From: Capitulum mitella
Taxonomy: Eukaryota > Arthropoda > Thecostraca > Pollicipedomorpha > Pollicipedidae
Length of the DNA: 64,000 bases
Direction of reading: 5' to 3'
Assembly: GCA_030062745.1 (NCBI GenBank)
Contig: CP099854.1
Span: 17,561,337-17,625,336, forward strand
Position 1 is the first letter of the stretch. Each line of letters starts with the position of its first letter. Positions 1,081 through 28,719 of this stretch are shown piece after piece. The notes under the pieces were generated by a model. The model did not search any database, was not told the origin of the DNA, and was given only the letters and a program-made list of their open reading frames with translations. The translations under genes were made by a program, and so were the position numbers.

Positions 1081-4000
1081 GAAGAAAAAAGAGAGATGTC
1101 CATTACCATTATATTCGTCACTTCTCCGTCCCATCTGTGTACCTTTCCTCCGGTGCGTTTCCGCGTGTTGCGACACCTGGCACTGGTCACAGTCACTGGA
1201 CGCCGCTCGTGCAAGACCGTCCCGTCTGCACCGCTGCCGGCGCCAGCCAGCCGTGACCAGGTGTAGTGCAGACACGGTGCACGTGCCCAGAGCTAGGCGA
1301 AGGCCGTCACACCGGTGCGCGCTCCACACATGCACCAGCGCAAACAAGGCGCCCGATTATCATCAGGCTCTCTCTGGTGCGGAGAAAGTGTTGTTGCTTT
1401 TGCTGGGGTCGCCTCTGCTGGCGGTAAACAACGAAGGTGAAGCGAGAGAAGCGTAACGCTCGCAGCTCTCGCCTACGCGCAATCAGAATGTTTTTAAACG
1501 CTTCTCGCCCGTGTGCTGTTCCGAAACTGATTATTCGCCAATAAGTCGCAAGATGTCACAAGCAGGCGTTGGCTACTCCAAGAACGGGACCTTGTTTTGG
1601 GTACTGGAATCGAAATGCTCAGCCGGTCACGGGTCGGCCGCGTCGTGGACTTGCACCGCACGGTGGAGATCCTCCGGCGGTGTCTGGCTTAGTGCCTGGG
1701 ACAAAATTTCCCTGGAGGCACACCTGGGTAACTGAATCGGGCGCCGAACACAGAGCTCGGCGTAGCAAGGACTTATCCTAGCTCTATCCACGTCCACACG
1801 TTTAGGCAAGCTCATTGAATTTAATACGCTTTCACAAGCTTAATGAATTCAATGAGCAGCTCCTGGCTGAAAGCGACGGCCACAGCTGTGCTCGTGGCAG
1901 GACTGAAACGAACTGTCTGAACTGAACTGAGCCGAACTGAGCCCGCGCCGAACGCACTGAAGATCGGCTCCGTAATGTCATCTGCCGCCAAACAGTTAGC
2001 AGAGCTGTCAGAGAGCTGACGTACTCGGACTAGTACCTGTACAGACTGGTACAGCTGGCGTACTCCGGCGGCGTCTAACGAGAGGCGGCCGCCCTGGAGA
2101 CAGCGGCGGAACGCAGCCACGGTGAAAAACAGGAATGGAGCTTTTCGTTGATGTCATGGGTGTCAAATACGGCTGTCACAGCTCGTTTGTTTCGGAGTTT
2201 AGCGGGAAAAATTACGAAATACTTTAAAGAAGAAATTCCCAGGAGCTTTCATTGTTTTATATCTTCAGTAGGCAGGGCCGACGGATTAGGGAGGGGGAAG
2301 AGGGCAGCTGCCCTATCTCCGTCGAAATTTGAAATTAACCCTATGGCGCTGCATGGAAAGAAACGACCTAAGCAATTTGCTTGCTCCCCATCTCTGGAGG
2401 GGCTCCGCCGTCACTAAAGTCATTCTTCCTCGATACCGGTCAACGGTTTACCAGTGTGAGGAGAAAACAGCGCGTGACGTCAAACATGTTAGCTTGTCGG
2501 TGCCCAGTCAAGCCATGTGGGTGGCCAGGGACCCACAAGCATTCCACCGGTGGTCAGAACACACAGGCAGCCGTATCGTGATTGGCCTTATCTATCCTCG
2601 AACAAACAACAGTGAACGACGGTTTCGGTGCACCGACGCGTGCCTAGCGCACGTAAGTAGCAGTTATGAAAGTTGCGTTGCACGGAGTTATATTCCTTTC
2701 CTTACGCCATCTCAACGGTCACTTGGAAACCCAAGCAATCTTTCATTGGGCATGGCGGCATCTACAGGCCAGTGGTGTCCCCGGAGAACACCAGGTGGCG
2801 GTGAGTGAGCGGAGCTTTCCGTTTAGACGTACCTCTGACCGCTAGATGGCAGCAGCTGCGCCGCTGTCCGCACAGCTCGCTGAACATAACGTCAGAGTAG
2901 GGTCGGATCCAGGGACGTGGCCAGGATCTCGCCAAGGAGGTGGCCATGAAAAACCGGACCCCAACAAAACTGAATGTTCCTCAGAGCTCGTCCACTTATT
3001 TTTGAATTCCGGAATTCGCAACTATTTTCATATTTGGCGCGCAAAGAAAACATACATTTTGAGTCAAGGGAGGCCATGATCCTCTAGCCTCTTTTCCCCC
3101 TTCCTTGGCTGCGCCCCTGGCCGAACCTCGGAGGATGGAGGAGGGGAGAGCGGAGAAAGTATTTGAGGAATTGTTACGGCACTTCAACCTTCCAACGCAC
3201 ACAATAAACTGCTTAGATCAAACGCTAAACGTACCAGGGCTCACAGAGATTATTCATCCGGGAACGACACCCTACATACCACCCTAAGCCTTCGTGCGCT
3301 CGAACAAGAAGCACGCACCGATAACCTCAGCCAACATCACCAACGTCAGAAAACCCGCACATCACCGAGAACAAGCAGATTAGCCCGCGCATCTGCCGTG
3401 TCACTGGGGGCAATGATAAAGGCAGCTACATGAAAGCACAACCATCAAGATTATCCACCTTTGTTCTTTCTTTGTAGGCCAGATATATCTCACCACACAT
3501 CTGTCACTCTGTCGCACCGAAACTGGAAGGTGGCTATCAGAGATATCTCTGAGACGCATTAGCCACCAGTGGCAGCCCCCTCCCCCTCCCCCCGACAAAA
3601 TCAGACCAAACGGTTCCTGCTCTGGCAAGTTTTGGTCCGGTGTGAATGTGTCGCCGCGGTGACGTGGGGCATGCTTCCATTGTCAGAATGCTTTGCATGG
3701 GTGTCGATGTGACCAACGCCAGCCCTCTGACTGCGATAAATGAAACATGCACACACTATCTGATGCACTTTAAAGAGGCACTCATCGCGATACATGTGGA
3801 AACGGAAGAATCGCTATTCACGTGATGCGTTTGGGTTCACGGTGAACGCCAAAGCAAGCTTCGTTTTTCCAAACAAGAAACTATATTCAGCCTGTGAAGC
3901 ATCCGATGTGTTGCGAGAATCTGCGAATCACGTCACCAATACATGCAGTTTATTTGGGTACTTGAACATCACGCAGCTCCTTCGATGTGTTTCGGTGACA

Positions 4001-4903
4001 CTGGTGAATTTTCACGTCACCAGTACAGCTTACGTCACCGCCACCTTGGGGCCAAAATATCAACTATGACTTGGCCTCGCTGCTGTCAGAGGTCAGGACT
4101 GAGGCCACACGGTCGGCGGAACTCGTTGCCGTGCTCATGAATCCACTTGTTTGCCACTGTGAACGCAGAGAATGTCATGTCAAACGTCATATCATGGCTG
4201 AAATAAAAGGCGGAAAAGCTGCGTATTTTGCTTTGTGAATACTACAACAATCGCGTACACCAACACCTCGTAATGACGTACACCCATCATATTGCTGCAA
4301 AAGATTCGTTACCATGTCATAAGATCTCCTCTGCACGCTTTTGTAAATGACGTCACTTTACATTCGGGAGAACCAACTATGTCCGATGAATATGGAAAGT
4401 CTCAATTTTTTGTTAAGTGTAGAAATCTCAGCCGTATTCCGACACGCAAGCTGCACGGTGCATTGGTGCATCGGTGCACGGTGCAACACCAATAAATCCG
4501 GAATTTAGCATTGCGTCCTTATTGACGTATGGATTTAAAGCTGTATCGCCAGCACCATTTATTATCTGAGGTCATCACCCTTACAAGGAAAAAAAATCAT
4601 TTCTCAAGCTTGTTCAATGTTTACGTCGCTTAACACTCGCCCGTATAGGGAGGTCGATGGAACCCCCACTCTGAGGTTTTCCGAGGATAGCTTCCGAACG
4701 GTCGGTTTGATCCATCAGAAGCTTGGTGTGTCCCCTGGGGTGTCCTTTCCGCATCTCATGGCGACAAAAAATTATTCTACGTTGCCATAGTAACAAGTTA
4801 TGACGTCAACACGGGAATCATGTCAGCCGTTTTCGCATGCCGACGCGGCAGTTGACAACGGTGACAGTTTGGTCTCACTGTAATACGACTGGAGTGCAGA
4901 AAT

Positions 4904-4910
<7 letters not shown>

Positions 4911-4960
<50 letters not shown>
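4911..4960. repeat. (TA)n microsatellite
   Basis: About 25 uninterrupted TA dinucleotides. Confidence 0.98.
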
Positions 4961-4964
<4 letters not shown>

Positions 4965-6776
4965 GATTCCAAAGTGTACATTCCATAAGACTGTACATAG
5001 ATTTAATGGGCTGATGCTTACGGCCGGGAATATCGAGGGTGTAAACTGAGGTCATGAACTACGGCGGGAACATGTTACTTTTTATCTTTGTGAGTGCGAT
5101 AGGAAATAGGTATTGCAAAACCACGTATATATTCCGACTTCTTGAGGTGTGAGTAATCGAGGTGCAGTGCAAGAACGCCTGACTTCTCTCCGACGGGTGA
5201 AGCGGCGTCGGCCGCTAAGTCTACCTAGAGAGTACCTCGAGAGATCTGAAAGAGTCTAAAGAGAGATAGTCTAGAGAGAGAGTACCTCGGCATGCTTAAA
5301 ATTAGACGTTGTGCTGGGTGTCAATTCCGGAAACGCTTTTACGGCATTTAAGCTACAATTTTTAGCTAATCCAAGGTCATCCTAGGTCATTGGCTTCAGC
5401 TAATCTTGGATGGCCTAAGCTGACCTTTATATGTTATTCGACAATAGCGTTTGTTAACTGAGATGCTTGCCTATTACTATTCGCAAAAAAAGCTTCTGCA
5501 TCTCGGAGAACGCATTTAAGCCGACGACCCCGCTTGACAAGGATTGACCTAGCATGACCTGGATCGGACTCCATAGGTAAAACACAATCATATGGGGTAC
5601 AGATAGACTCTTAATTGATCGATGAACACTATGATGTTTGTTTCGTTTCATCGTCATTTATTCCTCGGCGTTCATTTACGCTTAAACTCGAAAATTGCAA
5701 TTTTCTGCCAATTTTTGACATCTGACCGGACCTGGAAGGTCATTCGTTGATCTGAAACCTTGAAAGGAGACACAAGTCGCCAGATCTTGTCACACGCAAC
5801 ACGCTCTGTCTTTTGCGACGTTCTAGGACGCGCGGTGTGGAAATGGCCGGGGGTCTTACCAACCCCCCCAACCCCTAAACGTTCGCGTTATGCAGAAGGT
5901 CCTATACGGACGAGTTAAACATTCTTGTACATTTTGAGGCACGTAGATAGTGCGATAATCTTCCAGAAATAAAGGAAATCTGACATTAACAGATTGTTTG
6001 CGTCAAAAGCGGCGTACTTTCTGCCTCGACTAAAGCAGAAAAAAGAGGTTTCATATACAGCTATCCCGAGATATTACTAATTCATACAACACCCCAACAA
6101 CAAAACACTCGACCTTCCCTGCCTCTGCAGAGTTAGGGGAGGTCGCGTTCAGGGGACCGCGAAAACGCTCCCCTGAACCTTTGACACGGGCCATGAGAGC
6201 ACGTGAGATGAGAGGTGAGAGGTGAGAGGTGAGAGGTGAAGCCACGATCTCGCCACGAAGGACGACTAGGACAAACCTATCCCCCCTCGAAAACTTAAAC
6301 TCTTCGGTTTTTGGCCGCTTTATTTTCTGGTTCCTGCAATTTTCGTCGGCTTCCAATTTTGGTACGCAAAGAAATATTGAATTTCCAAGCTCAAGGGGAC
6401 AGGACATGGCCCCTTGCCAGGCACGTAGCCAGGATTTTCCTCAGGGGTGGGGGGCCAAATGTCAAACTTTGTCAGATGCCACTGGTATATGACGAAATTA
6501 CTAGGAAAAAGCAGCAACTGTATGCATTTACTTCATGTTTAACGTACACGACAACATATAATGTTTCCTTTTGCAACAGATATGTGATCACTATTTTGCA
6601 TTCATACGAAATCGCCATATATCTAGCGAGGGCCGCTTAGATCGGGGGGGAAATGACTCCCATACCCCCTCTCCCCCACTTAGCTACGTCCCTGCCCCTT
6701 GCCCTTCCCTTGGCTACGGCCGTGCTTGAGAGTAAGCCTGCGGCCCCGCTAAGTGCCGGGGCAGGACACAACCCAC

Positions 6777-6942
6777 CCCACTTGGAGCCGACCAGGACGG
6801 GGCAGGCGGCGTGGCGGGTGCGCAGGTCGCCGCGGCCGTCCGGCAGCAGGTTGTACCAAAACGCGGCCGACCCGCGGCGCGGCTGCAGCGCCACGCCCAG
6901 TTCCGTGAACACGGTGGCGCCGCCGGTCGCGACGTCCGACAT
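6777..6942 (-). CDS. P4HA: P4HA exon 12: third iron ligand and 2-oxoglutarate lysine
   Basis: The exon reads MSDVATGGATVFTELGVALQ, then PRRGSAAFWYNLLPDGRGDL, then RTRHAACPVLVGSKW. These are the hallmark GGATVF, KGSAxFWYNL and RTRHAACPVLxGxKW blocks. The RTRH histidine is the third Fe ligand and the GSKW lysine binds 2-oxoglutarate. The donor is TGGG|GTGGGT, phase 1, which fits the usual continuation KWVxNKW. Confidence 0.93.
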
Positions 6943-9900
6943 CTGGCGGCGAGAAAGCAAACTAGAGGTTGCGACACGGCCAAAGCGAGACGCTAGCTCC
7001 GCGAACACGGTATTTACGTGTTGTGTTAAGCGACACGGCTGTTTTGGTTTTTACCATTTTCTATACTCTTTTCGATGGTGCTGGCTGTCGCTTTCCATGT
7101 CGTTGAAAGTTTCAAGGGGTGGCGGTAGGGGCGGATATTTTGAGGCAAGAATCCCCCAATGCGATCGCAAACTTCAACATCGGAGTCATCTTAGATCAAG
7201 GAAACAAACGGCGATTCGACGTCGAGAGACCAGTCCGCTGTCTCATTCTCGTGACATGATTCCATTCGACACGAAAGACCAAAAACTGATGCAAAGAAAA
7301 CGCAAAAGATGTTGTGGTGCACTTACATAGAACATGAAGGTAGCGATTCGGTTTCCGTCCTGGAGATTCGACGTTGCCGACTCGTTCTGTAATGAAAGGC
7401 AAAAATTTGGTAGTTCTATTCCCGAAAATGTCGCATCATCGTCTTGGGCATCAAGAACACCTAAGCAGAACCACCAACACTGAGGCAAGCACCATGCTAA
7501 CAGAATATGCTGCGAGGAATCCGTGCAGGCTGTGTACATAGTAGTCTAGACACACACATTCTACCTATTTTTTGCATCAAAGATGGTGCAAATACGGCTA
7601 ATAACATACGCGAAAATACAATAGTCATAGCTTCTCTGAGGCAGCAGGCAAAGCCATAGAATATTAAACATCTGTTTGACACGCAGAACTGTACTGGTAT
7701 GCCGAACAAAATAAAAATCTAGCAGGCACTGAAACCGGGCTATGTTCGAGAGCGAATGATCTTAATTTGTGTATGACAATGGCTAAGACAACGTCTGAAA
7801 ACATTCATTTTTACGATATGATCGGCAATAGATTGCATTGTGCGAATCGGTAACATACAGATGACAATTTACAACATGTTCTGCTAACTGAGCGTCGATC
7901 TTTCGTGAAAGTTAGCCATGACCGATGCAAATCACTTCCCAGTTCCTTCCAACTGAATTGGATCACATGGAAGTGGCGAATGCCGGCAAAGAAAGTTGGG
8001 GCAGTACGCTCCCATCGCTCACTTATTGGCACATTAGACTTTGGAGGAATACTAACTGCTAACTGTTGTACCTAAAATGCTTTTGGTTATGTACACGAAT
8101 ATTTGTATTTTATTTCTTTGTGTACTTTTTCGTGAAACATACGGCGACGCATCTACACGAAAGGTGGAAAGCTAAATTTCGTTAAGCACCCACGATAAGC
8201 CTTTCTGGCTCCGCCCGTGGCCTCACTATGGCGTGGTCCAGGTGAGGTTCGTAGTGGCCCCCGATGCCGTAGTTCACCACCTGCAACTGCTCAGCCGTGG
8301 ACAGGCTGAGACCGGTCAGCTGAGCCACGCGACGCTCCACCTGCCCACAGTGACGTCACACATCAGCTGAGTCATGCGACGTTCCTCCTGTCCGCAGTGA
8401 CGTCGCACGTCAAATGAGCATCCACAACGCTCTACCTGTTGACGATGGCGTCAAACATCGGCTGACCCACGTGATGCTCCACCTGTCAGCAGTGACGCCA
8501 TACACCAGCTGAGCAACAGAGCATTCTATCCGTCTACAGTGACGTCATATATCAGTTCAGCCGCACAACGCTCCACTTGTCCAAGATGACGTCACACATC
8601 AGCGCAGAGATACCATATAGGTTCCGCCCGTCCCCAGTGACGCCAAAGATCAGAGGTGCAACACGACGCTCCACCTGTCTACAGCGACGTCGTACATAAG
8701 CCGAACCACACGACCCAACCACAGTGACGTCATACACGTGGGTGTGTGTTGGGTTAAATTTTGGTATGGAAAAGGAATTTTTTTTTAACCCTGAAAGGAG
8801 GCATACTTATGTACACAATAGTTTATTTTCGCAATGGCTTATTTTCTAAAGCAAGAAAACGCATGAATGGGTCAAGATGTTGGTATGGAATTCCATACCA
8901 ATAATTTCCTTTCGTATGATAAGTTTCATACCGAATGTTTATAAAGTTACACCCTTGGTCATACATCAGCATTGTCACACGACCTATCACAGCCATGTCA
9001 TACATCAACAGTCACATGACGCTCTCCCTGTCCACATCATGCATCGTCTGAACCACAGGACTACCTTTCCACAGTGACGTCACTCATGAACTAAGCCACT
9101 CGACGCTCAACTTGCGCACAGTGACGTAGAAACCAGCCCCGTCAGCTGTGTCACGCGAAAATGACGTCATCCGTGAAACAATTCCTTTCCGAAGACCGTG
9201 CTTCTTTTCTTCTCACAAGCTTCGCTTATGCCAAACCGTTCTCTGTGAATCCCAAGCATCCGCTGACCCCTCACCGCAACCGTGGCTTTCCTGGATCCTC
9301 CGCTGATACACCTCTATGGCCCTCTTCTGTCACGATCCACTCCCCTTTTCTCTTTTCGACTTCACTCGCCTCCTCGGGCCAATAAGGACAGTCCTCCGAC
9401 TGTTTCCGCAGTCCTCACCTGTGTGACGGTGGATCGGTCCTCATTCACCACGGGGTCTCTCTGGATCTTCGCCGTGGTCCTCGCCTGTTCGACGGCACTA
9501 TGGTCCCCTGGCCTCAACCAGAAAGACTCTCTGGTCCTTTCCCGCGGTCCTCAGCTGTTCGACGGCGCTGCGGTCCTCTGGCCGGAGCCAGGAGGACTCA
9601 CAAGACTATCCTCGTGGTCCTCACCTGTTCGATGGCGCTGTGGTCCTCGGAGCGTAGCCAAGCGAATTTGCTGATGCGGTAGCTGACCTCATCGTGCCCG
9701 CCAGTCTGATCGTTTCGCACAGTCGCTCGATTCAGCTGGCGAATCAGAAGCAGCGGTAAGACTGGAAATGATGTGAGGACCACGTGCCGGTGTGACGACA
9801 TGTGGATGGATTGCACTTACCTTGTTTCGATGGTTGGTTACAGAAGCTTGAAAAAGTCACCTGATCAGAAAAAAGTCGTTAGTTTTTAAAACTTTCTTGT

Positions 9901-12900
9901 CTATTCCAGTCAATAATCGGGAGAAAGAAGGAAACTTCAACGAAATTATCCAACTCGTCACCGGACACGGTAATGTCACTCTGTTTACATCTTACCACGG
10001 GGCTTACGATTACCGGCCTTGTGATCTTTAAATGCCATTGTCACTCTAGGCCTTGTCATGCCTAATCTGTCCTCTTATGAGACTACTTGGGTAAAGAAAT
10101 ACGAGGCAACAATCCATGCATGTCATCGTTAGTTGCGGGCCATCTTCAGTGGACTCCACTGATCTAAAACCCTGGATTTCCATGACACTAGACTTTTCTG
10201 AAGCAACTTCAGATAGCGGTAGAAACGTCATCGTGACTTCTCTCTGTTTCAAACGTACTTCCTTCAGGGGGCCTTCGGGCATTAACAAGAAAGCATTGCG
10301 TTTTCCGGCTGGTGTAACTGCCGGTGCAACAACACAGTCAAACATGAACAAACACGAAAAGCTGCACATCTCATCGATCTTTCTTTCCGCAGTTTAATCA
10401 TTTGATCTCCTTTGCAGCTGATTAACATGGAGTACTGAGCTACTGTGTGCGGTAGCTCAGTTGGCAGAGCGCTGGTCGCCGCGTCCTGGTAACATAGGCA
10501 GCGGAACGGGGGGTGCAGAGGGGCACCGTGCTCCTTAACTGGCGAAATTCAACATTAACCCTATGGCGTTCCATGGAAAAAATGGCTCGAAAAGTAGCCG
10601 TTGCCCGCCTCGCCGGAACATGCTCCGCCAATAGTGCCTGGTAAGACGGGTTCGAGTAAATTCGGTGCTCGATTTTGGTCCGCAGGTCAGCTGATAAGCT
10701 GGCCAACATAGATTGAAGCTGGCTACCACACGGTCGTGTCGCACCTTTGGCGGCACGTTAAAATTTTGCCACAAAATCAGCCGTTGCCCGGGGCTGCGCG
10801 ATCGGCTGACGGGGTCGGAGTCTATGCAAAAAGGTCAAAGGTCGGAGTCTATGCAAAACGCTCTGCTTAGCGCGGGCTCCGATACCAGACTAGCGTCGTC
10901 CCACCGGACCACTGAGATCAAATCAGACCAGTAATCTGACAATTTTGGCACTCTCGCGGCAGTGTAAGTCTTCCTTGATCAGAATCATCACCGCGCATTA
11001 GGACTGGTCGGCGGCGACCCTGAATAGTCTTTACTAATGCTTCCGTGTTTCTTTGCCGATTATTGAAATGCGAGAAATGAAGGCGGTTATGGAGAACGCA
11101 TTGATGGAAAAAGAGATTGCTGTTTATGACTGAAAAGGTGATCAGGAAAGTGCATTGACAGAACAACTGACTGACGTCGATAAAGACGTCAGTGACGATG
11201 ACAGTGATGATCATGATGGCGATCATCGCCATCATCATCGTCGTCATCATCATGGAAAACCAAACTATGAAAAGCACAATGGTGGAAAAACTGCACATCT
11301 ATCGGTACTTCTTTCGGCAATTTCGTCATTTGACCTCCTTTTTACACGAGAGCGCCTGAAACGCGCGTCCTTAACGTACCAAAGGCGCGGAAGTTCTTTT
11401 GATGGCCTCGATCTCCGAGTCGTACATGACGTTGTGGAAGAGGACGATGTGCGGGTCCAGCCGGGCGTCCTCGGTGGGGAAGGGCTGCAGGAGCAGGAAC
11501 GGGACGTTGCTGTGGCTGTAGTAGCACCTGCCGGCAGAGGCAGTTTCCTCCGTTCGTCTTACTGGCTTCCAGAAAAGAGTTGCCGAGACCTGTGAGGAAG
11601 CATTGAGTCCAAATGCCCTTAACAACACAAGAAAAGTGAGGAAGAAGATGGCAGCTGCAAACCGCTACAAAATTCCCTCGCCAACATGGGCAATCAAAAT
11701 TCAATTCAACATTGAAATTTACTTTGTTTAATTTAAATAACTTTAATAATAACCTAAATGAAAAACACTTTTTTTTATTTTAATAACAACTTAGATTTTT
11801 AAACCATTTTTTTATTTCAGTAATAATTTAAATAAAAATAACAGTTAGATCTGCATCCACGCTATTACCATCTTTCCCGATCTCTCTCTTCAAAACCCTT
11901 TCTTTCCGGCATGACTAGGGCCACCGGAACCTTTCTCGTTCATTCCATGAGTTCGAAATGACCAGAACTGGTCGTTTGAGCTCTGACCACAAGCGTACTG
12001 ACAACATTACTGCACAGAGACCATTTCTTGATTCTCAAAATGCCGCATAAAAAACGCCATGAAGCGCATGGACAATTTGTTCTTGAGCGCCGGAATTTCA
12101 GTGCTGAGCTTCTCAGTTCTCACGTGCCAGCTGTGCGCTAACCGCGCACCTGAGGCGTTTGGAGATGCTGGGTTTCAGCGTGGTGCCGCCTCGACACAGC
12201 GCCAGGTAGTCCGGGTCAGCGTATTCATCGTCGCCGTCCGACTCGGGACGAGCCTGCGTCTGGAAAAGTTTCCGTCATCGCCGGTCCGAGCTCCTCAGAC
12301 CAGTGACGTAGCCTGGACTTGGCCATGAAGGGACAACAACAGAGCTGACCCCGCCCGAAAGTGAAAATTCCTCTGATCCCTCCTCTTTGTTTTCGATTCC
12401 CGGGGATTTCGACTTATTTTCATTTTGGTGCAGAAGGCATCGTTAAAATTTCAACCTCCAAGGGCGAGGACTGAAATGCCCCCATCCCTCCGGCCTTCCT
12501 TGGCTACGCCTGTGTCTCGTACCCGCACCTGCACAAACGTTATTCGCCTCGAAACGCATTGGTTGCGTGCAGCCGTTCATCGGCGGGAAAACAAAACTTG
12601 AAGGCATAGTTCCATGTTCATCACGTGTTTGGAACACAGATGGTCTGATAGAAATTCCTGGCAATTGGCTTGATGATACGCATGCTGAAAATATCACCCA
12701 GAAAAGACTTTTTGATCACGTCAAGCTAATTTTACAATCCGACCAATGGGGAACATTCATTTTAAATTGGGTTTCCCCGGAGCTGGGAATGACCCACGGA
12801 CCATTTTCAACAGCGTCGTAAGCTGGGTATGTTTGTTTATAACATCACTGTGTAATCCAGCAATGCATGAACATATTTGGGGGGTCCTGTGACAGATTTT

Positions 12901-15900
12901 TATTACTGCAGGTTTGATGAACAAAGGACAATTATTATGCGTCACTTGCATTACGGTCTATGCGTTACAAGTTATACGTGAAAACTCACGAAACTTCTGA
13001 GAGATTGCCAATCGGCGTTGAGTATAAGCTGACGCGTAAAAGGACCATATAAATACTCGCTGTCCGTGAACCTGGTCAGCACTTTTTTGTCACCTTAATT
13101 TCCTTTGCTTACCTCGTTAGCATTTGGACTTTCGGCCTTTTCACTGTCGTCTTTAGCGTCGCCAGTCTCCTTCAACTGATCTTCATAGAATGCCTGGCGA
13201 CAAAGGAAGCTGTCAAAAATAGTAACGTGTCATGAATTGTTGTCCAAACTGGAGTAATGGCTTCTTGTTGCAACTATTTGTGAAGCATTTTCGGTGATAC
13301 ATAATTGCAAAACGTACTGGCTAAAAAATAATAATTAAAAGAGTTTTAACTTGGCCACTAACATAACGTAAATACATTATCTTTCTGTGATAACTCGTGG
13401 CTGGAATAACAACGTAAGACGAGTACGCTCGTCCATCCCTATCTTAAGGACGAAATCTGCATTACGTCTGTTTATACATTAGCCGCAATGGCATATCGTG
13501 GCATTGCTTGGAAAACAATCCGCTCATAACCGTCAGTCGGATTTCCTCTGTTTTGGGGAAAATCCTGCCCATGATTATCATTACCATTATACGAATAGTC
13601 CTATTTATCCACCACGAAGAGCACACGAAAGTTCGGTCGCTAAAATTTCCTTCGTTTCAGAAACTTAGATTTCCTTTTTTCAGTTATTGCCCCCATCCCC
13701 GTAAGAAAAGAGGTTTGACAAAAATACAAAAATAAAAAAAGTGCCGCGGACCACGGCGTCCCTGCCAAAACCGCAGCCCCATAGCACCAAACGCGTAACA
13801 CATTCGTGTGTCGTACTGTCTGTCCTTTGCCGCGTCGGGTTCTGGTCATTAGACCAACACGCTTTGACGTCATTTGCGGCCAAGAGGTGAAAACCCGCGC
13901 TGCCAGCCAGGTTTGAACCCGGCCCCTGCAGTTCGCGCTGCGAACCACTGACACCATCCTACGAGCAGCTGCTACCTCCGTTTTCGTCTAGACATGTGGA
14001 GTAGCATCGGCCTTTTGGCACGTGTCTGTAGCATAGCCTCATCCACCATATGATTATTTTACACATGGATAGAAATTTCCGAATATTACTGCGTATGATT
14101 CTGAGCAGCATTGGAAACATTTTTTTTTTAAACCATTAACATATGTATGATGCTAAGATCTCTCAAACTTGGCACTTGGACTCGCCGAATCCGCATGATC
14201 TCCAGCCATTCTCTTACGCATCAGGAGCTTCCCTGTTTCCTTTTTTGCATGGCTATTAGCCATTCGCTATTCGTGCATTGTTTTTCCCAGATAAACTTCC
14301 TCACGCAGTACGTACCACGTTTTGAATAGCGACCTCATGCTGTGGATCCTCTCGCAAGAGGTCAAGGGTCAAGGCCAGCGCGCGCCGCGTGTCTCCACGG
14401 CGGTACGCGGTGAAGGCCAGAAACTCCAGGACCTCAGCCGGTCGGACGGACGGTCCGCCAATCGGCGTCGAGGACGCGGGCGCTCCGCCAATCAGCGCTT
14501 CGAGCCGGCCGCGACGCCACGCCTCCTGCAGCCAGGGCTCGGCGTGCCTGCGGGGGCCGAGCCACCAGCCGTCGGGAAATAGCATAGAGCACAGCCGGAG
14601 ACCGGGTCGGACACCGAGGGTTCTGGACAAGGATATCAGGCGTTTGGAGCCGATCAAGGGTGGTGGGCCCTGATAGCGGATAAAGAATAGAGCGGATAAA
14701 GAATTCAGCATCGTATTTCAAAGCACGAATGCACTTTTGCCCTCCCCAGCACGCGGGGGCAGGGGAATGGGGTACAAACCCCCTCAGGTTTTCGATAGCT
14801 ATCACAGAACGACGGCGTCGATGATTCTGACATTGCGCAAACCTAGGCGTTGAGCGTTTTTACACATTGCTTGAAAATGTGGGATCAGTACCTTGAAAGG
14901 TCGCCGACCTGGTTCCTTGAGGGCATGCCATCGAGAAATCACATTACGGCCGCCGTCTCTATCGGACAGCAATCGTTTTCGACGTTTTTCGATACTCATT
15001 ATTGTTGGTCTTCTACAGGAGTGGCACCCACGATGCTAATGACTGCCGCACTTGATAACATATCTGGGTTACGGTTATCTTACGTCGCATTAACGAATTG
15101 GGATTATTGACCTGTTTTACATGTCGTCGACATCAGAGGTCACGATGTAATCGGAGACGCCAATTTGCATACAAGCAATAGTCTGAGATATCGTTAACCC
15201 GCGCACGACCGTCAGTCCGTTACGATCATGCGCGACTGGGGGGCAGTTGGCAGCCCCCTCTAACTCACGAACGGTTGGTCGCACAATAAAAATAAGCACA
15301 CCGTTGGCAAGCCTGTGAGGAGTAGAGCTCGCAACTTGTCTCATTTTGGTTTTAGATAATATGTAAGCAATTTACGTCCTATATATGTTTTCTCATAGCC
15401 GACTGCATGAGACCGAGAAATGGCCTGAATCTCAAGGGCTGTGACGAATAACGCATAGGTTAAGGCACCAGGGCGCAAGTAAAGGCCCGCGGATGCCGAT
15501 ACACGTCTAATTTCCCAGATTTCTTCAATATATACACCGAAACAGTTAAAGACACGGCAATTTTCGAGCCTAGTTGTAGGCATGCGCCGCTGCCGTATGC
15601 AGTAACAAATTGACGGGAACTAATTTTAGCGATCCTTTATTTTCTCGAAAAAAGGCGATCTGTGTATATTTGATTGGTCTTTGTGGTTCTTGTGGTGGTT
15701 TTTCATGCTTAAATTCTGGAAAAATCATTAGTTACCAATCTACACAATTCGCGGAACTTTGTTTGCGAGAGCCTGTTTATTTCCAAAATATGCAACTTTT
15801 TTTCAAACTTTTTGAGGCTCCTGGTATTACTTCCGTCTGTGCAAGCCAATTCTGCCATTTTCTACCCATTCTGAGTAATTCATCGCCGACTTTGACGGTG

Positions 15901-18900
15901 GTACATTTTGGCTCACAACAGTTATTCGTGACCTGACCTCAGGTCAATGGCTGGAAATCATTGATACTTTGCCCAATGACGGTAACTAGATGTCTGCTTC
16001 ACTCCACACTAAAAATGTTATAAAATATTCCGTCAATTTCCGAAAAAAACGACATGTCTAAAAAATGGGCTTGACCTTAGGTCAATGACCTGGAAAATTT
16101 CGAAAAATCTGAGATAGGAGTTTTGTTGCATCTATCTGCATCACTAATCCCTGAGAGTATTATTGAGATATCTTGTTTTGCGAAAAAGTTGGAGGGCGCT
16201 AAACTTTTTTGGGCATATTTCTGTTTGACCTGACCCGAGGTCAAAACTTTGACACAAGATGTAAAAATGATGAAGCCAAAGGTACCCAATGTTTCGTGCC
16301 CTGTGTTTGTTCGTTCTCTCGCAATCCCAGAAAAAACCTCGGATGGGGTTCTCAACGTACCCCCCAGTCGGGGGCGGGTTAACAGTTGTTTTGGATCCCT
16401 TAAAGACTCCTGTAGGTGACGTTCTAGAGGACCTAATGAAAATCAGAATCCATAGATATCACCTCGTCTGAGGTCGCATGTAAGGCCATTGCGTGACCTT
16501 AAGGGTGAAACGATGTGTTATCGTGCAGCAAAAAGACGTCTGCTACACGACGGATTTTATTTCGTCCCTATAGCACGTCAGGTTTGCAAACAGGTGAGGG
16601 GTCGATTCCCCTTCCTTGTCCTGGCGAAGGGGGCCATACAGTGCATACTGGCGAAGGTTAAACCAGAGATCCAATGTGTGGGAAAACCAAGTCAGGATCA
16701 GTGGCCGGGCTGCGGTTCATACGTGCCCCTCAATACATTTTACCTAGGTACCATAGACAAAGCCGCCGTGGACAAGGAGACGCATTCCAAGAATTATAGC
16801 ACGCATGGATACCAGCGAGTGACAAAGTCAGAGCACGTAGGCGATATATATATATATTGTAAATAATGGTTACACATCGTCGACCTTATTTCCTGAAATG
16901 TATTCCGGTCCCAACCCGCAAAGTAAAATCAGTCACCTCGTGTGCGGTTTCCGCACGTTCACTTCTTACTCGAGATCACCGCCGAAGAAACTCTGTCTGC
17001 CGATTTCGAAGCAGTCCGAGGTGGTCAGTTCCCGCTTCAGGCTGCTCCCCGGGACCTTGCCTTGCGCCAGATCTGCATGAAACGTGCAACAGATGTCACA
17101 GCGTTACGCAGCGTCACGTCACACACTTATCCGCCTTCGGCGAAAAGGGGTTTTGCATCTGGCGCCCTTACCCGCCGAATCTTGGTACCGAGCCCGTCTG
17201 GTACTGACCTGTTGTGATGAGCTGGTAGGTATCCGGTTATGGTGCTGACCTGCTGTGTTCAGTTGGTAGGTGTCCAGTTCTGATTCCGACATATTGTGCT
17301 GAGCTGGTAGGCGGCCGGTTGTGGTTCTGACCTTGTGTATTGAGCTGGTAGGTGTCCGGTTCTGGTTCTGACCTGTTGTGTTGATTTGGTAGGTTCCTGT
17401 CCGGTTCTGGTTCTGACCTGTTGTGTTGAGCTGGTAGGTGTCCGGTTCTGGTTCTGACCTGTTGTGTTGAGTTGGTAGGTTCCTGTCCGGTTCTGGTTCT
17501 GACCTGTTGTGTTAAGCTGGTAGGTGTCCGGCTCTGGTACTGACCTATTGCGTTGAACTGGTAGGTGTCCGGTTCTGGTACTGACCTATTGTGTTGAACT
17601 GGTAAGTGCCCAGTTCTGGTACTGACCTGTTGTGTTGATCTGGTAGTTGCCCAGTCCTGGTACTGACCTGTTGTGTTGATCTGGTAGTTGCCCAGTCCTG
17701 GTACTGACCTGTTGTGTTGATCTGGTAGTTGCCCAGTCCTGGCACTGACCTGTTGTGTTGATCTGGTAGTTGCCCAGTCCTGGTACTGACCTGTTGTGTT
17801 GATCTGGTAGGTGCCCAGTCCTGGTACTGACCTGTTGTGTTGATCTGGTAGTTGCCCAGTCCTGGTACTGACCTGTTGTGTTGATCTGGTAGGTGCCCAG
17901 TCCTGGTACTGACCTGTTGTGTTGATCTGGTAGGTGCCCAGTCCTGGCACTGACCTGTTGTGTTGAGCTGGTACGTGCCCAGTCCTGGCACTGACCTGTT
18001 GTGTTGAGCTGGTAGGTGTCCGGTTCTGGTTCTGACCTGTTGTGTTGAGTTGGTAGGTTCCTGTCCGGTTCTGGTTCTGACCTGTTGTGTTAAGCTGGTA
18101 GGTGTCCGGTTCTGGTACTGACCTATTGCGTTGAACTGGTAGGTGTCCGGTTCTGGTACTGACCTGTTGTGTTGAGCTGGTAAGTGCCCAGTCCTGGTAC
18201 TGACCTGTTGTGTTGAGCTCGTAGGTGTCCTGGAGACGGACGAGCGCTGCTGCTGCGCCCGCCAGGTCGCCGTCGTCGGGCAGCATCACCTCCGGATTCG
18301 TCGATTTGATGTCGTCCAGAACATCTGACGAGGAAGCACGGAGCACACTGCAGCGAATGCATTCATTCCACAACTTCGGGATGGCGCAGTTGGCAGTAAA
18401 TGGCTCAGCGTCATTTGTTTACGAGCGCACGAAACTACACCAGTCTGCCTGTAATGGCACAGCAGAGCTTAGCTCGTCAGTTCTTGTTTATCTACCAACG
18501 ACATACGAACAAGTAGGAAAAAGAAACAGCATTCTTACTAGGCAGGAATCTAACGGAGAGAGCCAGCTTGAACAAAATCAAGCATGGAGAGCCATTTCCA
18601 ACGAATTGCATACTTTTGACAAAGCTGCTTATGGATGCTTGGAAGCTGCACACAGGTGCCATTATTATTACAGTATTGTAGTATTATTATCGCAGGATAT
18701 AATGGGGAAGTTCCATAAAAAAAGACCGCATTCCTGGCATTGATGAGCTTTTTCTGTTCGTCCTCGGGCTTGAGTGTTATGTTTTGTTTCATTGTTAAGA
18801 CATGAGATCTTATTCCTGCTATCTATTTCTTCTGACGTTTCATCATCTTTCGTAAGATGTCAGATGTAAGATTTCGTGAGACATCATCACGAAATAAGTG

Positions 18901-18941
18901 TAAACTGCGACTTAAAATGGTAAACGCAGTCCGAGAAGTAG

Positions 18942-18986
<45 letters not shown>

Positions 18987-19004
18987 GTTCTCGGACTATC
19001 TATC

Positions 19005-19069
<65 letters not shown>

Positions 19070-20475
19070 AAAAAGGATGCTGGAAAACCCAATGCCCCCA
19101 GAATAAGCAGAATGTATTTCAGGGATCACAACTGTCCTGAACGAAAGGCATAGTCGTTTGTGCTGAAATCCAACCATTCATGCGGCGAAAGGATCGAAGG
19201 ACGTTTTCATACGTTGGGCCATGAAAGTTTCTGTTTGCCTATAGAACCACTACGTTTGCATCGTCTCGGCAATCCTCGACGCCTAAATAGACGTCCGTTT
19301 ATTGAGCCGTTTATTGGTAAAATGCAAACCACTATTTCAGGTTGATTACCTACCTTGTGCTGCACTTTCCGTTGCCAACTCAACCGTCAGCTTCCAGTCG
19401 ACTGTGAGTCTTTTCACCAACTGGAAGGCGGCTAGCGGGTTTCCAAGATGGCGGTCGGGATCCTTCATCAGCTGACTGTGCTCGTGCTCGAACCAGGCCA
19501 ATCTCCTGGCAATGAATGATGCAGAATAATTAATGCATAACTGAGCACGCTGTACAAACCTGGGCAAACTCTGCGCTTTATCTTTCAGATAACAATGCCG
19601 ATTTTGAGGCGTAATTTCCCTTTTTGTCCGTTCCTCGGCAGAGTCCTGGTTGCACGACCTACGACGCAGGAAATACAACAAAGCTCCTGTTTCTTTACAA
19701 AGGACACTTACCTTTCTATGAAGGTGAAAAAATCCGGGGCTGTTGTCTAACGTTTTGTAAAATCGTTCTGCTTGGCAGTTGTCAGATAGCTTGCATCAGG
19801 TAGTTACATCGCTTTTACATCTCTAATACCTAAATATTCTGCGGTTGGCTACCGGGCCGCTTAAGGCGCTGCTACTTTGGCAGCGTCCGCTGGAATTTGT
19901 TCCGGTCGAAACGTAGGGGGCATGTCACAGCGTGTTAATCAATAGCATAAACGGGGGACAGGATGGGGTCAACTGCCCCCCTCCCTTATGGTATGAGGTT
20001 TCCAAAAAATGACTTTTGTCGCATTTTGTTTTACTCCTACACAGTGGGACTGTAACTTGGTGAATGCCCCTGACACATCTGTGATTACAAATAAATGAAT
20101 CAATCAATCAATGAATTATTTTTTTAAAGACAAGGTTCTTTTAAAACAAAAAATGCGTAATTTTATTTGCAAAATCTACATGTGTGCTGCCGGATGGGTC
20201 AGTTTTCCCATGTTTGCAATCAAATGGTAAGAGTGTTACTATGCCTTTTTATTTCAGCCATGATCCCCCAGCTCGTTACGAAAGCCCGGGCCAGGCTGGT
20301 GACGTCACCGTTTGAGCTGCTGCAGCCTCTGCTGCTCCGCCTGGACTGCCCGCTCCAGCGCCTGGATCACGGCCCGCTCCGAGGCCACCAGGTGTTCAAG
20401 GTCGGCCAACGCCGTGAACAGCTCGCCGCAGCCCCGGCCGGCCACGGCCAGCAGCAGTGCTAGCGCCAGCAGCAT
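6777..20475 (-). CDS. P4HA: Prolyl 4-hydroxylase subunit alpha (12 exons seen; last exon not found)
   Basis: The protein is the catalytic alpha subunit of collagen prolyl 4-hydroxylase. This family works in the ER lumen with protein disulfide isomerase and hydroxylates prolines in X-Pro-Gly repeats using Fe(II), 2-oxoglutarate, O2 and ascorbate. Exons in transcript order: 20475-20309, 19505-19354, 18324-18205, 17072-16970, 14547-14316, 13193-13113, 12259-12150, 11527-11380, 9735-9625, 8340-8227, 7386-7327, 6942-6777. Together they give 1564 nt, 521 codons plus one base; vertebrate alpha subunits are about 530 residues. Domains: signal peptide 1-17, N-terminal dimerisation region about 18-145, TPR-type peptide-binding domain about 147-260, acidic linker about 262-305, 2OG-Fe(II) dioxygenase about 320-521. 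Visible ligands are H441 and D443 (PHLD), H510 (RTRH) and the 2-oxoglutarate lysine K520 (GSKW), with 69- and 10-residue spacing close to the family pattern. All intron phases agree. Exon 12 ends in phase 1, so a short final exon is expected below 6777 or outside the window. Confidence 0.93.
7327..7386 (-). CDS. P4HA: P4HA exon 11: dioxygenase core strand
   Basis: This 20-codon exon reads NESATSNLQDGNRIATFMFY. It matches the family's GNRIAT(W/F)LFYMS strand. The acceptor is CATTACAG|AAC and the donor TTCTAT|GTAAGT, phase 0 at both ends. Confidence 0.93.
8227..8340 (-). CDS. P4HA: P4HA exon 10: iron-binding HxD exon
   Basis: The exon reads VERRVAQLTGLSLSTAEQLQ then VVNYGIGGHYEPHLDHAI. The H and D of PHLD are two of the three Fe(II) ligands. 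The acceptor is GTGGGCAG|GTG and the donor GCCATA|GTGAGG, a 38-codon phase-0 exon. Its first 24 bases and acceptor are the seed of the 47-bp minisatellite in intron 9. Confidence 0.93.
8341..9165 (-). repeat. 47-bp minisatellite copied from the exon 10 splice acceptor
   Basis: Starting from the seed that spans the exon 10 acceptor (8317-8363), about nine degenerate 47-bp copies run to about 8738. Further copies lie at 8955-9165 beyond a 200-bp interruption. The unit is about 24 exonic bases (GCGTGGCTCAGCTG region), the acceptor, and about 20 intronic bases with the word TGACGTCA. On the plus strand the recurring word is CAGTGACGTCA, a perfect CRE-type octamer in several copies. Confidence 0.88.
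8738..8955. repeat. AT-rich insert within the 47-bp array, with a perfect palindrome
   Basis: This 200-bp stretch is unlike the flanking 47-bp units and interrupts them. It contains a perfect 22-bp palindrome at 8880-8901 centred on GGAATTCC, with a related half (TTGGTATGGAA) at 8761-8771. I see no coding potential. It may be a small insertion, of unknown type. Confidence 0.6.
9391..9624 (-). repeat. ~70-bp tandem copies of the exon 9 splice donor
   Basis: Exon 9 ends GAGGACCACAGCGCCATCGA, then ACAG|GTGAGGACC. Three further copies follow at spacings of 70, 70 and about 66 bp, around 9556, 9486 and 9420 on the plus strand. Their donor positions read CTGAGG, GCGAGG and GTGAGG. One has therefore lost the GT, one has a GC-type donor and the farthest keeps GT. 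A more degraded fifth copy may lie near 9391-9405. Confidence 0.85.
9625..9735 (-). CDS. P4HA: P4HA exon 9: dioxygenase domain
   Basis: The exon reads LNRATVRNDQTGGHDEVSYR then ISKFAWLRSEDHSAIEQ. It matches the family block RATV-x-N-x-x-T-G and YRISKSAWL. The acceptor is TCGCCAG|CTG and the donor GAACAG|GTGAGG, a 37-codon phase-0 exon. Its last 24 bases and donor recur three times in the intron that follows. Confidence 0.93.
10500..10760. repeat. Short dispersed repeat E (also near 2340, 21120 and 29240)
   Basis: Copies share CCCTATGGCG(C/T)TGCATGG, then AAA(G/A)AA. They lie at 2338-2372, 10558-10585, 21126-21156 and, inverted, 29218-29250. Similarity extends for tens of bases on either side. 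No coding content. Confidence 0.5.
11380..11527 (-). CDS. P4HA: P4HA exon 8: entry to the dioxygenase domain
   Basis: The exon reads CYYSHSNVPFLLLQPFPTED then ARLDPHIVLFHNVMYDSEIE. It matches the family block LxPxKxExxxxxPxIVxxHDVxxDxEIE. The acceptor is CCGGCAG|G and the donor CCTTTG|GTACGT. It is 148 nt, entering in phase 2 and leaving in phase 0. Confidence 0.93.
12150..12259 (-). CDS. P4HA: P4HA exon 7: linker and conserved LCRG motif
   Basis: Acidic residues lead into DPDYLALCRGGTTLKPSISK. The YxxLCRG word is a family signature just before the catalytic domain. The acceptor is TTTTCCAG|ACG and the donor CTCAG|GTGCGC. It is 110 nt, entering in phase 0 and leaving in phase 2. Confidence 0.9.
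12305..12515. repeat. Short dispersed repeat D (also at 2910-3125 and 6190-6425)
   Basis: Three copies of a roughly 200-bp unit lie here, at 2910-3125 and at 6190-6425. Shared features are GTAGCC(A/T)GGA at one end, TTCGATTCC-like and TATTTTCATTTTGG-like words inside, and CCTTCCTTGGCTACG-like sequence at the other end. The ends are roughly inverted, as in small MITEs. Confidence 0.5.
13113..13193 (-). CDS. P4HA: P4HA exon 6: acidic linker
   Basis: This is a 27-codon phase-0 exon reading AFYEDQLKETGDAKDDSEKA then ESPNANE. The acceptor is TCGCCAG|GCA and the donor AACGAG|GTAAGC. It falls where family members carry a variable charged linker between the TPR and catalytic domains. Support comes from phase, position and splice sites more than from sequence identity. 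Confidence 0.8.
13903..13970 (-). repeat. tRNA-like sequence (SINE head or tRNA pseudogene)
   Basis: The minus strand reads GGTGTCAGTGGTTCGC (A-box-like), then GGGCCGGGTTCAAACCTGGC (B-box GGTTCAAAC) about 30 bases on. The stems are imperfect and no acceptor stem closes, so it is not a functional tRNA gene. Confidence 0.5.
14316..14547 (-). CDS. P4HA: P4HA exon 5: TPR peptide-substrate-binding domain
   Basis: The exon reads HAEPWLQEAWRRGRLEALIG and later EVLEFLAFTAYRRGDTRRAL, then LLREDPQHEVAIQNV. This is the family's helical TPR unit, where WMEQAL, LDYLSYAVYQQGD and ELDPEHQRA are the usual words. A Gly/Ala/Ser/Pro insert between the helices holds a small internal duplication (IGGAP and IGGPS, ATTGGCGGA twice). 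The donor is AACGTG|GTACGT, phase 0. Confidence 0.92.
15194..16382 (+). mobile_element. TTAA-type MITE, family B (copy B1), in P4HA intron 4
   Basis: This 1189-bp element is bounded exactly by TTAA at both ends: TTAA-CCCGCGCACGACCG... and ...CCCAGTCGGGGGCGGG-TTAA. TTAA target sites with CCC/GGG ends are the hallmark of the piggyBac superfamily. It has no transposase frame. The interior holds blocks shared with the other B copies, including CGAACGGTTGGTCGCAC and several AGGTCA/TGACCT half-sites. Confidence 0.85.
16970..17072 (-). CDS. P4HA: P4HA exon 4: start of peptide-substrate-binding domain
   Basis: The exon reads DLAQGKVPGSSLKRELTTSD then CFEIGRQSFFGGDLE. It matches the family segment around KGNLPG and the DCFELG motif. 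The acceptor is CATGCAG|AT and the donor CTCGA|GTAAGA. It is 103 nt, entering in phase 1 and leaving in phase 2. Confidence 0.9.
17205..18204 (-). repeat. 41-bp minisatellite copied from the exon 3 splice donor
   Basis: There are twenty-four tandem copies after the exon 3 seed. Most are 41 bp; three are 45 bp (17370, 17456 and 18034). On the minus strand a unit holds ACCTACCAGCTCAACACAAC, then AG|GTCAGTACCAG. That is the last 25 bases of exon 3 plus the first 16 of the intron. Nearly every unit keeps an AG|GTCAG-like donor. The block 17415-17624 resembles 17993-18202 copy for copy, so a higher-order duplication of about five units also occurred. The array fills almost all of intron 3. Confidence 0.95.
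18205..18324 (-). CDS. P4HA: P4HA exon 3: N-terminal domain, ends at the minisatellite
   Basis: The exon reads DVLDDIKSTNPEVMLP, then DGDLAGAAAALVRLQDTYEL. It corresponds to the family block GAAKALLRLQDTY. The donor is ACAACAG|GTCAGT, phase 1. The last 25 exonic bases plus the first 16 intronic bases form the repeat unit that fills intron 3. Confidence 0.92.
18926..19065. repeat. (TA)n microsatellites with a flanking inverted repeat
   Basis: Two TA runs (18944-18980 and 19010-19065) lie in P4HA intron 2. The first is flanked by near-perfect 18-bp inverted arms, CAGTCCGAGAAGTAGTTA at 18926 and TAATTAGTTCTCGGACTA at 18981. The whole could fold as one hairpin. Confidence 0.9.
19354..19505 (-). 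CDS. P4HA: P4HA exon 2: N-terminal domain
   Basis: The exon reads RLAWFEHEHSQLMKDPDRHL followed by GNPLAAFQLVKRLTVDW. This matches the family block KDPEGFVGHPVNAFKLMKRL. The acceptor is ATTGCCAG|G and the donor CAAG|GTAGGT. It is 152 nt, entering in phase 2 and leaving in phase 1. Confidence 0.9.
20309..20475 (-). CDS. P4HA: P4HA exon 1: signal peptide and start of N-terminal domain
   Basis: The ATG at 20475 starts a hydrophobic leader (MLLALALLLAVAGRG) with likely cleavage after residue 17. Next comes GELFTALADLEHLVASERA, matching the family's conserved LFTS-x-x-x-x-x-L-I-x-x-E start. The exon ends AAACG|GTGACG in phase 2. A good acceptor (CTCCTGCAG) lies about 60 nt upstream of the ATG, so the 5' UTR may itself be spliced. 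Confidence 0.9.
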
Positions 20476-27420: not shown

Positions 27421-27726
27421 GCGCCACCTGGCGCACGTACAGCGTCAGTCCCGCTGTGCCGCGCCGCCTCCGCGCGCCCGCCGCCCGCAGCGCCGCCTGG
27501 GGCGGTCGGTCGCGGGCGGCGGCCGCTCCGCCGCCGGCCCGTTCTGTCCGAGCGCCGCCGGTTCAGAGCGCAGAGGCCGCACCCGCCCGACGCTGGCCGC
27601 CGCCCAGCAGCAGCTGCAGCGCCTGCGCCGCGACCAGCAGCACCAGCAGGCCGGGCGCGGCCAGCAGCGGCCGGCGGCCGCAGCTGCAGCACGGCCCGAC
27701 ATTCCGGCGGCCGCCCGCCCGCCCGC

Positions 27727-28255
27727 AGAGTGGACCGGCGCCGGTCAAACAAGGGACCGTCCGCCCGCAGAGTGGACCGGCACCGGTCAAACAGGGGACC
27801 GTCCGCCCGCAGAGTGGACCGGCGCCGGTCAAACAGGGGACCGTCCGCCCGCAGAGTGGACCGGCGCCGGTCAAACAGGGCACCGCCCGCAGAGTGGACC
27901 GGCGCCGGTCAAACAGGGCACCGCCCGCAGAGTGGACCGGCGCCGGTCAAACAAGGCACCGCCCGCCCGCAGAGTGGACCGGCGCCGGTCAAACAGGGCA
28001 CCACCCGCCCGCAGAGTGGACCGGCGCCGGTCAAACAGGGGACCGTCCGCCCGCAGAGTGGACCGGCGCCGGTCAAACAAGGCACCGCCCGCCCGCAGAG
28101 TGGACCGGCGCCGGTCAAACAGGGCACCACCCGCCCGCAGAGTGGACCGGCGCCGGTCAAACAGGGGACCGTCCGCCCGCAGAGTGGACCGGCGCCGGTC
28201 AAACAGGGCACCGCCCGCAGAGTGGACCGGCGCCGGTCAAACAGGGCACCCCCGC
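27727..28255. repeat. 42-bp GC-rich minisatellite upstream of the GT11 locus
   Basis: There are thirteen copies of CCGCAGAGTGGACCGGCGCC, then GGTCAAACAGGG..., in 42-bp units with 38-bp and similar short variants. Each unit carries the palindrome GACCGGCGCCGGTC. The 42-bp units read without stops on either strand (for example RRVDRRRSNRGPSA forward), which explains the long open frames here. I do not regard these as a protein. Confidence 0.95.
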
Positions 28256-28719
28256 CCGCACACCGCGCCAGCCACGCGAGGCCCGACCGAGCGGAAAACA
28301 CTGACGACCGGCGGCGACCGCAGGCAAGCCCATCCTCCGAACCTGATGCACCGAGTGGCTTGAAACCTGCAACAATCGACGCGGCTCGCGTTATTTCCCT
28401 TTCTTTTCGGAATTTGGTGACCTAAGGTCATGCTAAAGGTTAACAAAAAGGCATCGAAAATGCCGTTGCTGCCTTATTCCAGCTGCAGCAATGCCATGGT
28501 CGGGTCAAATGGACTGCGGGTTGCGTTTCCATGTTTTCGGTTCCGCCGGACTGGGGACTGGACTCCATTCCTTTGCTGTTCAGGATTGGGAATTGGATTA
28601 CCCTCTTTTTTTAAACGATTTTGATGACTTCTGTCCATTCCAGTGTGTTTACGCCGTAATACTGCGCAAGCCTCCTTGTTTCTGGAAGTGGACGGATGCA
28701 GCACCGGCAAGTCGCCGAC

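Follow-up and report, generated by a model that had tools for sequence, protein, structure and literature searches.

A donor-spanning VNTR in the ABCA7 gene is tied to human disease risk. This human intron-18 VNTR has a 25-bp unit starting from the canonical GT of the exon-18 donor and 23.7 copies in the reference (PMC5954066). Of the transcripts, 2 ± 1% are spliced at the decoy donor of the next unit downstream, independent of array length, and skipping of exon 19 increases with length (PMC5954066). Tandem genomic duplication of AGGT segments as a source of new introns is treated in a review (PMC3443670) and in an account of Drosophila cases (PMC2891723). Short direct repeats of 4-30 bp that are common to both borders of an intron are read as traces of insertion (PMC11782384). 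Among the papers listed by full-text searches, no title or beginning of an abstract was found that describes recurrent junction-founded arrays across one genome, at donors as well as acceptors.

The window analysed here (a stretch of 64,000 nucleotides from Capitulum mitella) carries on its minus strand an intact gene for prolyl 4-hydroxylase alpha (P4HA), a collagen-modifying enzyme. Its 13 exons (4086 to 20475) were mapped by tblastn and connect through GT/AG sites in a single clean frame of 544 codons, and the 544-aa product contains the P4Ha_N, TPR_P4H and 2OG-FeII_Oxy_3 domains (Pfam). Exon 3 (18205 to 18324, minus strand) ends with LQDTYELNTT|G and is followed by the 1132-bp intron 3 (17073 to 18204, minus strand; GTCAG...CAG). 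Exon 4 (16970 to 17072, minus strand, phase 1) begins with DLAQGKVPGSSLKREL at base 17072, directly after TTCATGCAG, and its peptide starts with (G)DLAQGKVPG. Both exons were delimited by protein alignment and frame joining. The peptide across the exon 3/exon 4 join aligns without a gap to human P4HA1 (PDB 2yq8, E 1.5e-12), and the join lies inside a single P4Ha_N domain (E 4.1e-34, residues 23-155). The exon 3 boundary rests on this protein continuity, by which the junction at 18205/18204 is well supported. The same continuity points to the exon-proximal GT (18203 to 18204, minus strand) as the true donor of exon 3 and probably the one in use.

The first-pass annotation had described intron 3 of this gene as 24 tandem copies of its own splice donor, and TRF and an HMM profile scan agree on this. 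The TRF row spans 17197-18230 (minus strand) with a period of 41, 24.9 copies and 88% matches, and the profile scan resolved 25 units, namely the exon's own copy and 24 intronic ones. In each unit, 26 nt of the exon 3 end precede the donor and some 15 intronic nt. The 41-bp junction unit of the earlier description stands, but its exonic part is about 26 nt instead of 25, and a spacing of 45 bp occurs three times among the 24. The founder copy (18205 to 18230, minus strand; TRF and profile units, protein alignment) is made up of the final 26 nt of exon 3, which are conserved coding sequence. From this start, 26 nt within exon 3, the array covers 1,008 of the 1,132 bp of the intron (89%). It had been said to reach from the true donor almost to the acceptor of exon 4; it ends 124 bp before the acceptor. 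The 24 decoy donors (17207 to 18163, minus strand) have their first G at 18163, 18122, 18081, 18036, 17995, 17954, 17913, 17872, 17831, 17790, 17749, 17708, 17667, 17626, 17585, 17544, 17503, 17458, 17417, 17372, 17331, 17290, 17249 and 17208. The donors were correctly noted as mostly preserved, with GT retained in 24/24 decoys and AG|GTCAG in 23/24. Alignment of the exon 3 end to intron 3 confirmed that exon end and repeat unit are related (score 47, against at most 32 in 300 dinucleotide shuffles).

The locus resembles ABCA7 in that both intronic arrays adjoin an exon and include its donor (PMC5954066). In P4HA intron 3 the canonical donor of exon 3 is part of the repeat unit, and the array runs from the exon into the intron (18230 to 17197). 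The ABCA7 unit, however, is described as starting at the GT (PMC5954066), whereas the P4HA unit takes in 26 conserved coding nt; length variation and an effect on splicing are described for ABCA7 (PMC5954066), whereas the P4HA array is known from the sequence of one assembly. A further difference is that here arrays recur in several genes, and at acceptors too. The P4HA intron 3 array is of the ABCA7 kind, with coding sequence in the unit. With the direct repeats at intron borders it shares the closeness to splice sites, but it is a multi-copy array of one junction, unlike those repeats (PMC11782384).

The sequence supports a local origin of the array by duplication across the exon 3/intron 3 junction, as had been proposed: the conserved coding end heads the array, the unit core is local and other junctions behave alike. 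The 21-nt unit core (up to 2 mismatches) was not found outside the locus in the 477-Mb genome of 16 contigs, among at least 22 matches, all of them in the P4HA intron 3 locus. The earlier suggestion of a link to an intron-making route finds no support here. In that process, too, coding sequence around AG|GT is tandemly duplicated, as reportedly happened in the potato RdRp gene, but there one duplication creates the intron, whereas here the intron apparently pre-existed, the acceptor is unrelated and the copies are wholly intronic. In the C15 paralog an intron 3 occupies the identical place and phase (LNTA|G...DIANG), and no array was found in the 406 bp of this intron (one paralog compared), so intron 3 appears to be older than the array. 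Absence of the intron in relatives lacking the duplication was therefore not observed, as judged from this one paralog. Nor are donor and acceptor two copies of one AGGT segment: the acceptor TTCATGCAG|ATCTGG is unrelated to the array unit, and the exon 4 start scored 14 against intron 3, a value matched by 276/300 shuffles. The birth of an intron was rejected on account of this array-free paralog intron, and growth of an older intron would be the simplest reading.

Taken together, the intron 3 array is probably a minisatellite founded on a splice junction that left decoy sites behind. A short segment straddling the exon 3/intron 3 boundary would have been duplicated in tandem, and the copies would then have multiplied within the intron through one- or multi-unit exchanges. 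The differences among units are patterned, and one block of 159 bp, roughly four units, is found again at a distance of 578 bp (18148-17990 and 17570-17412, 157/159 bases identical), which is the expected outcome of a multi-unit exchange. The outermost copy would be fixed, since it is held in place as coding sequence and working donor, and as long as that site serves, the intronic copies would be free to multiply cheaply. At position -16 the exon 3 copy has G whereas all 24 decoys have C, so exon and array probably passed through no recent mutual conversion. The remaining copies would act as decoy donors that splicing normally skips.

Junction arrays are present at further sites of the same gene. 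When its 24 exon edges were compared with their own introns, exactly three exceeded all 300 dinucleotide shuffles: the intron 3 donor (47), the intron 9 donor (38) and the intron 9 acceptor (31). The intron 9 donor array (9398 to 9660, minus strand) has 4 units of about 70 bp, the exon copy and three more, with decoy sites CTGAGG, GCGAGG and GTGAGG; it follows exon 9 (9625 to 9735, minus strand), which ends with EDHSAIEQ|. The intron 9 acceptor array (8320 to 9128, minus strand) has 12 units of about 47 bp, the exon-10 copy and 11 more, and is broken by about 270 bp without recognisable units; it precedes exon 10 (8227 to 8340, minus strand), which starts with |VERRVAQLTGL. Both arrays were identified by TRF, edge scores and profile scan, and both exons were placed by exon joining. 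The second C16 paralog also contains the two intron 9 arrays; by eye, several of its acceptor units are nearly identical to each other and the third unit of its donor array has GC, as in the window. In the C15 paralog, intron 6 holds an acceptor array of 77-bp units bearing the start of exon 7, intron 11 a copy of its acceptor junction, and intron 9 a 52-bp array ending about six nt before the acceptor.

Several other sequence features were recorded around these genes. The palindrome TGACGTCA occurs at 17 sites in the window (e.g. 2475, 8351, 13865, 23570), compared with about one expected from base composition, and also inside the intron 9 arrays of three P4HA genes (the window gene, L034 and L035). 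The P4HA-like locus L040 has a 27-bp x 17 array. At 27715-28260 the window contains a GC-rich 42-bp x 13 array (92%) with all three forward frames open and no Pfam match in the one frame tested.

Myosin (9 loci) and kinesin (10 loci) genes were taken from a Pfam search and picked for compactness, not for repeats. Donor junction arrays were found in myosin C2a (23-bp units), in myosin C14a (79 bp, both decoys GC) and in a kinesin on C3 (38 bp, 8 units, decaying). Acceptor junction arrays were found in myosin C2b (39 bp, 10 units, occupying most of the intron) and in myosin C9 (57-bp units; L057, reversed-locus 1868-2374). The myosin C9 units are open in the exon frame, with 19 codons each, and judged from sequence these copies might be coding or might serve as alternative acceptors that keep the frame. 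By eye, decayed arrays of few copies are also present at other junctions of two myosin genes. A 30-bp x 21 array in my_C2c abuts or lies near a junction, as do arrays in my_C11, my_C2c (621-734), my_C9 (812-927) and C15 intron 9; exon sequence was not recognised in any of them and they were left uncounted.

In the kinesin paralogs L061 and L062 (C3, about 60 kb apart) one exon is 99.5% identical in DNA over 391 bp, and no alignment longer than 28 bp was found in the introns between matching exon blocks. The donor array is present in one copy only, and the other has GC at the GT position of the donor. A 24-bp tandem of 2.5 copies lies inside a conserved exon of the my_C2a gene (L042, 3295-3353). 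In addition, a divergent single-exon myosin head was seen at C1:14897776-14899626, and many cytochrome P450 matches are single open frames that span most of the domain, these genes appearing intronless.

In intron 3, 12 of the 24 decoys match the true donor throughout the nine positions from -3 to +6, agree with it at 27-28 of the 30 nt between -20 and +10 and have the same computed U1 duplex energy (-7.5 kcal/mol). Local sequence therefore scarcely discriminates between them, and we infer that the choice of the true donor must depend on position or distance from the exon 3 acceptor, on transcription order or on exon length. That little but position separates the sites would speak for functional decoys, acting as a set of alternative donors or U1-binding sites tuning P4HA output by copy number and yielding in-frame isoforms or frameshifted transcripts destined for decay. 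Use of the decoys is predicted to give seven open in-frame insertions (41 to 291 residues), 16 frameshifts and one in-frame stop, and the exon 3 frame stays open through the array as far as 17240. However, successive 41-bp units fall into all three frames, so that an open frame follows from the consensus and is weak evidence for function. ABCA7 can be cited on both sides, since its decoy is used and exon-19 skipping rises with array length, but decoy use stays constant across lengths (PMC5954066). Moreover, both decoys of the myosin C14 donor array have GC for GT, and GT is lost in two of the three intron 9 donor decoys, which argues that decoys are not generally kept. The motif AG|GTCAG tops conservation among 35 overlapping 7-column windows of the intron 3 decoys (166/168), a weak hint of selection that could be chance among so many overlapping windows. 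On balance a working role of the decoys is unlikely. The intron 3 decoys are probably mostly silent and the array close to neutral, with which the erosion or loss of decoys in other arrays fits.

It is highly improbable that the array is wholly or partly coding, with exon 3 continuing through several units. The frame open to 17240 and the 57-bp acceptor units of myosin C9, open in the exon frame when read by eye, would agree with coding copies, but up to 291 residues would enter a conserved domain that aligns without a gap over the exon 3/exon 4 join, the frame shifts with each 41-bp copy, and the myosin C2 acceptor unit (39 bp) holds a stop in the exon frame (read by eye). Given the continuity of the protein, this reading was set aside.

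Equally improbable is a dispersed satellite or mobile element resembling the exon end by chance, or an assembly artefact: minisatellites are common in this genome (3.4% of window-direction tests show a tandem copy no more than 1.2 kb away) and a single weak match to the array (68-69%) lies on C3, but the unit-core matches (at least 22) are all at the P4HA locus with none found elsewhere in the genome, the exon end is conserved protein sequence, the units differ in a patterned way, and the second C16 paralog has corresponding intron 9 arrays with the same GC site in the third donor unit, so that the dispersed repeat was rejected. The C3 match is a short CAG|GTCAGTACC core common to both arrays, within a different 35-bp unit. 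That C3 array (L032, 4470-4969; 35-bp x 14, 97% alike) has a unit that reads CAG|GTCAGTACC on one strand, with AG|GTGAGG on the complementary strand, and no gene was recognised for it. On C9, C12 and C1 there are three short matches, which are to the end of intron 3 outside the array.

The minisatellite founded on a splice junction thus remains the preferred reading of intron 3, and the frequency of such arrays at junctions in general was assessed by edge counts. A first edge survey, made without a matched control, gave 6/74 edges at a score of at least 28 and was later superseded. A second with swapped targets gave 11/144 at this score against 4.25 expected from the swaps; it was discarded because homologous myosin exons contaminated the null and duplicated muscle-myosin exons contaminated the hits. 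With amended bounds, 8/198 myosin and kinesin edges reached 28 against their own intron, compared with 0/198 on the wrong side and 0/560 exon-interior windows, the intervals of my_C2b, my_C9 and my_C6 having been changed by hand after the arrays were seen and my_C9 being positive only thereby. At a looser score of 24 there were 13 on the own side, 5 on the wrong side and 1 in the interior. For the myosins alone, 7/118 edges reached 28 (6/117 without one mis-call, my_C2b 4286, a junction within the array) against 0/1,770 null draws from non-homologous introns, and for the kinesins 1/75 against 0/1,500 null draws. Exon bounds in both families came from Pfam or tblastn matches, with the intron-spanning kinesin matches of L060 and L063 unsplit; L049-L051 are extensions of loci already known to hold arrays. 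The later counts omit the muscle-myosin loci L052-L054, in which TRF found no comparable minisatellite, and the P4HA-like loci L037-L041 on C4/C5, whose exons are partly mapped.

Comparison with random intronic positions gave a mixed picture. A tandem copy nearby was found for 5.0% of random myosin positions, so that the 6/117 edges show no excess, and only against random positions that form the terminal unit of an array (1.2%) did the edges stand out. The corresponding control rates were 9.9% (any copy) and 3.0% (end unit) for the P4HA gene of the window, with 3/24 edges, and 1.0% and 0.8% for the kinesins alone, whose 1/75 edges are near them. Moreover, 6 of 15 TRF arrays include a junction, against 1.8 expected by random placement with equal exon-overlap tolerance (P = 0.006), in a test whose cut-offs were set after the arrays were seen, whose junction status was judged by eye and in which one locus is a paralog of the starting gene. 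The other nine arrays are not junction-derived. This count covers TRF rows of at least 3 copies and a period of at least 19 bp in 20 loci (9 myosin, 10 kinesin and the C15 P4HA gene), with overlapping rows of one array merged and fewer copies, shorter periods and my_C2a 3295-3353 omitted; the window's own gene (3/3) is left out. GTC donors make up 5/61 of the called myosin donors and 3/30 of the nearest GTNNG sites in the kinesins, too few cases to tell whether donor weakness through C at +3 causes the arrays. That exon-edge copies exist beside the junctions described above is well supported, and an excess of arrays at junctions is likely, on mixed evidence, but not proven.

That the same architecture recurs within one genome, in various states of decay, points to a way in which introns could become longer and gain decoys. 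Splice junctions may accordingly be sites of intron growth and of the origin of decoys. With 12 decoys matching the true donor, intron 3 is an unusually clean test of splice-site choice. We put forward tentatively, as a possibility to be taken seriously, that the exon-intron junctions of this genome, donors as well as acceptors, are hot spots at which minisatellites are founded, and so a constant source, across the genome, of intron growth and near-perfect decoys. If this is true, the arrays would be natural experiments on how the spliceosome picks among up to 25 near-identical sites, and the in-frame copies in those of myosin C9 and P4HA intron 3 could be raw material for variable protein repeats.
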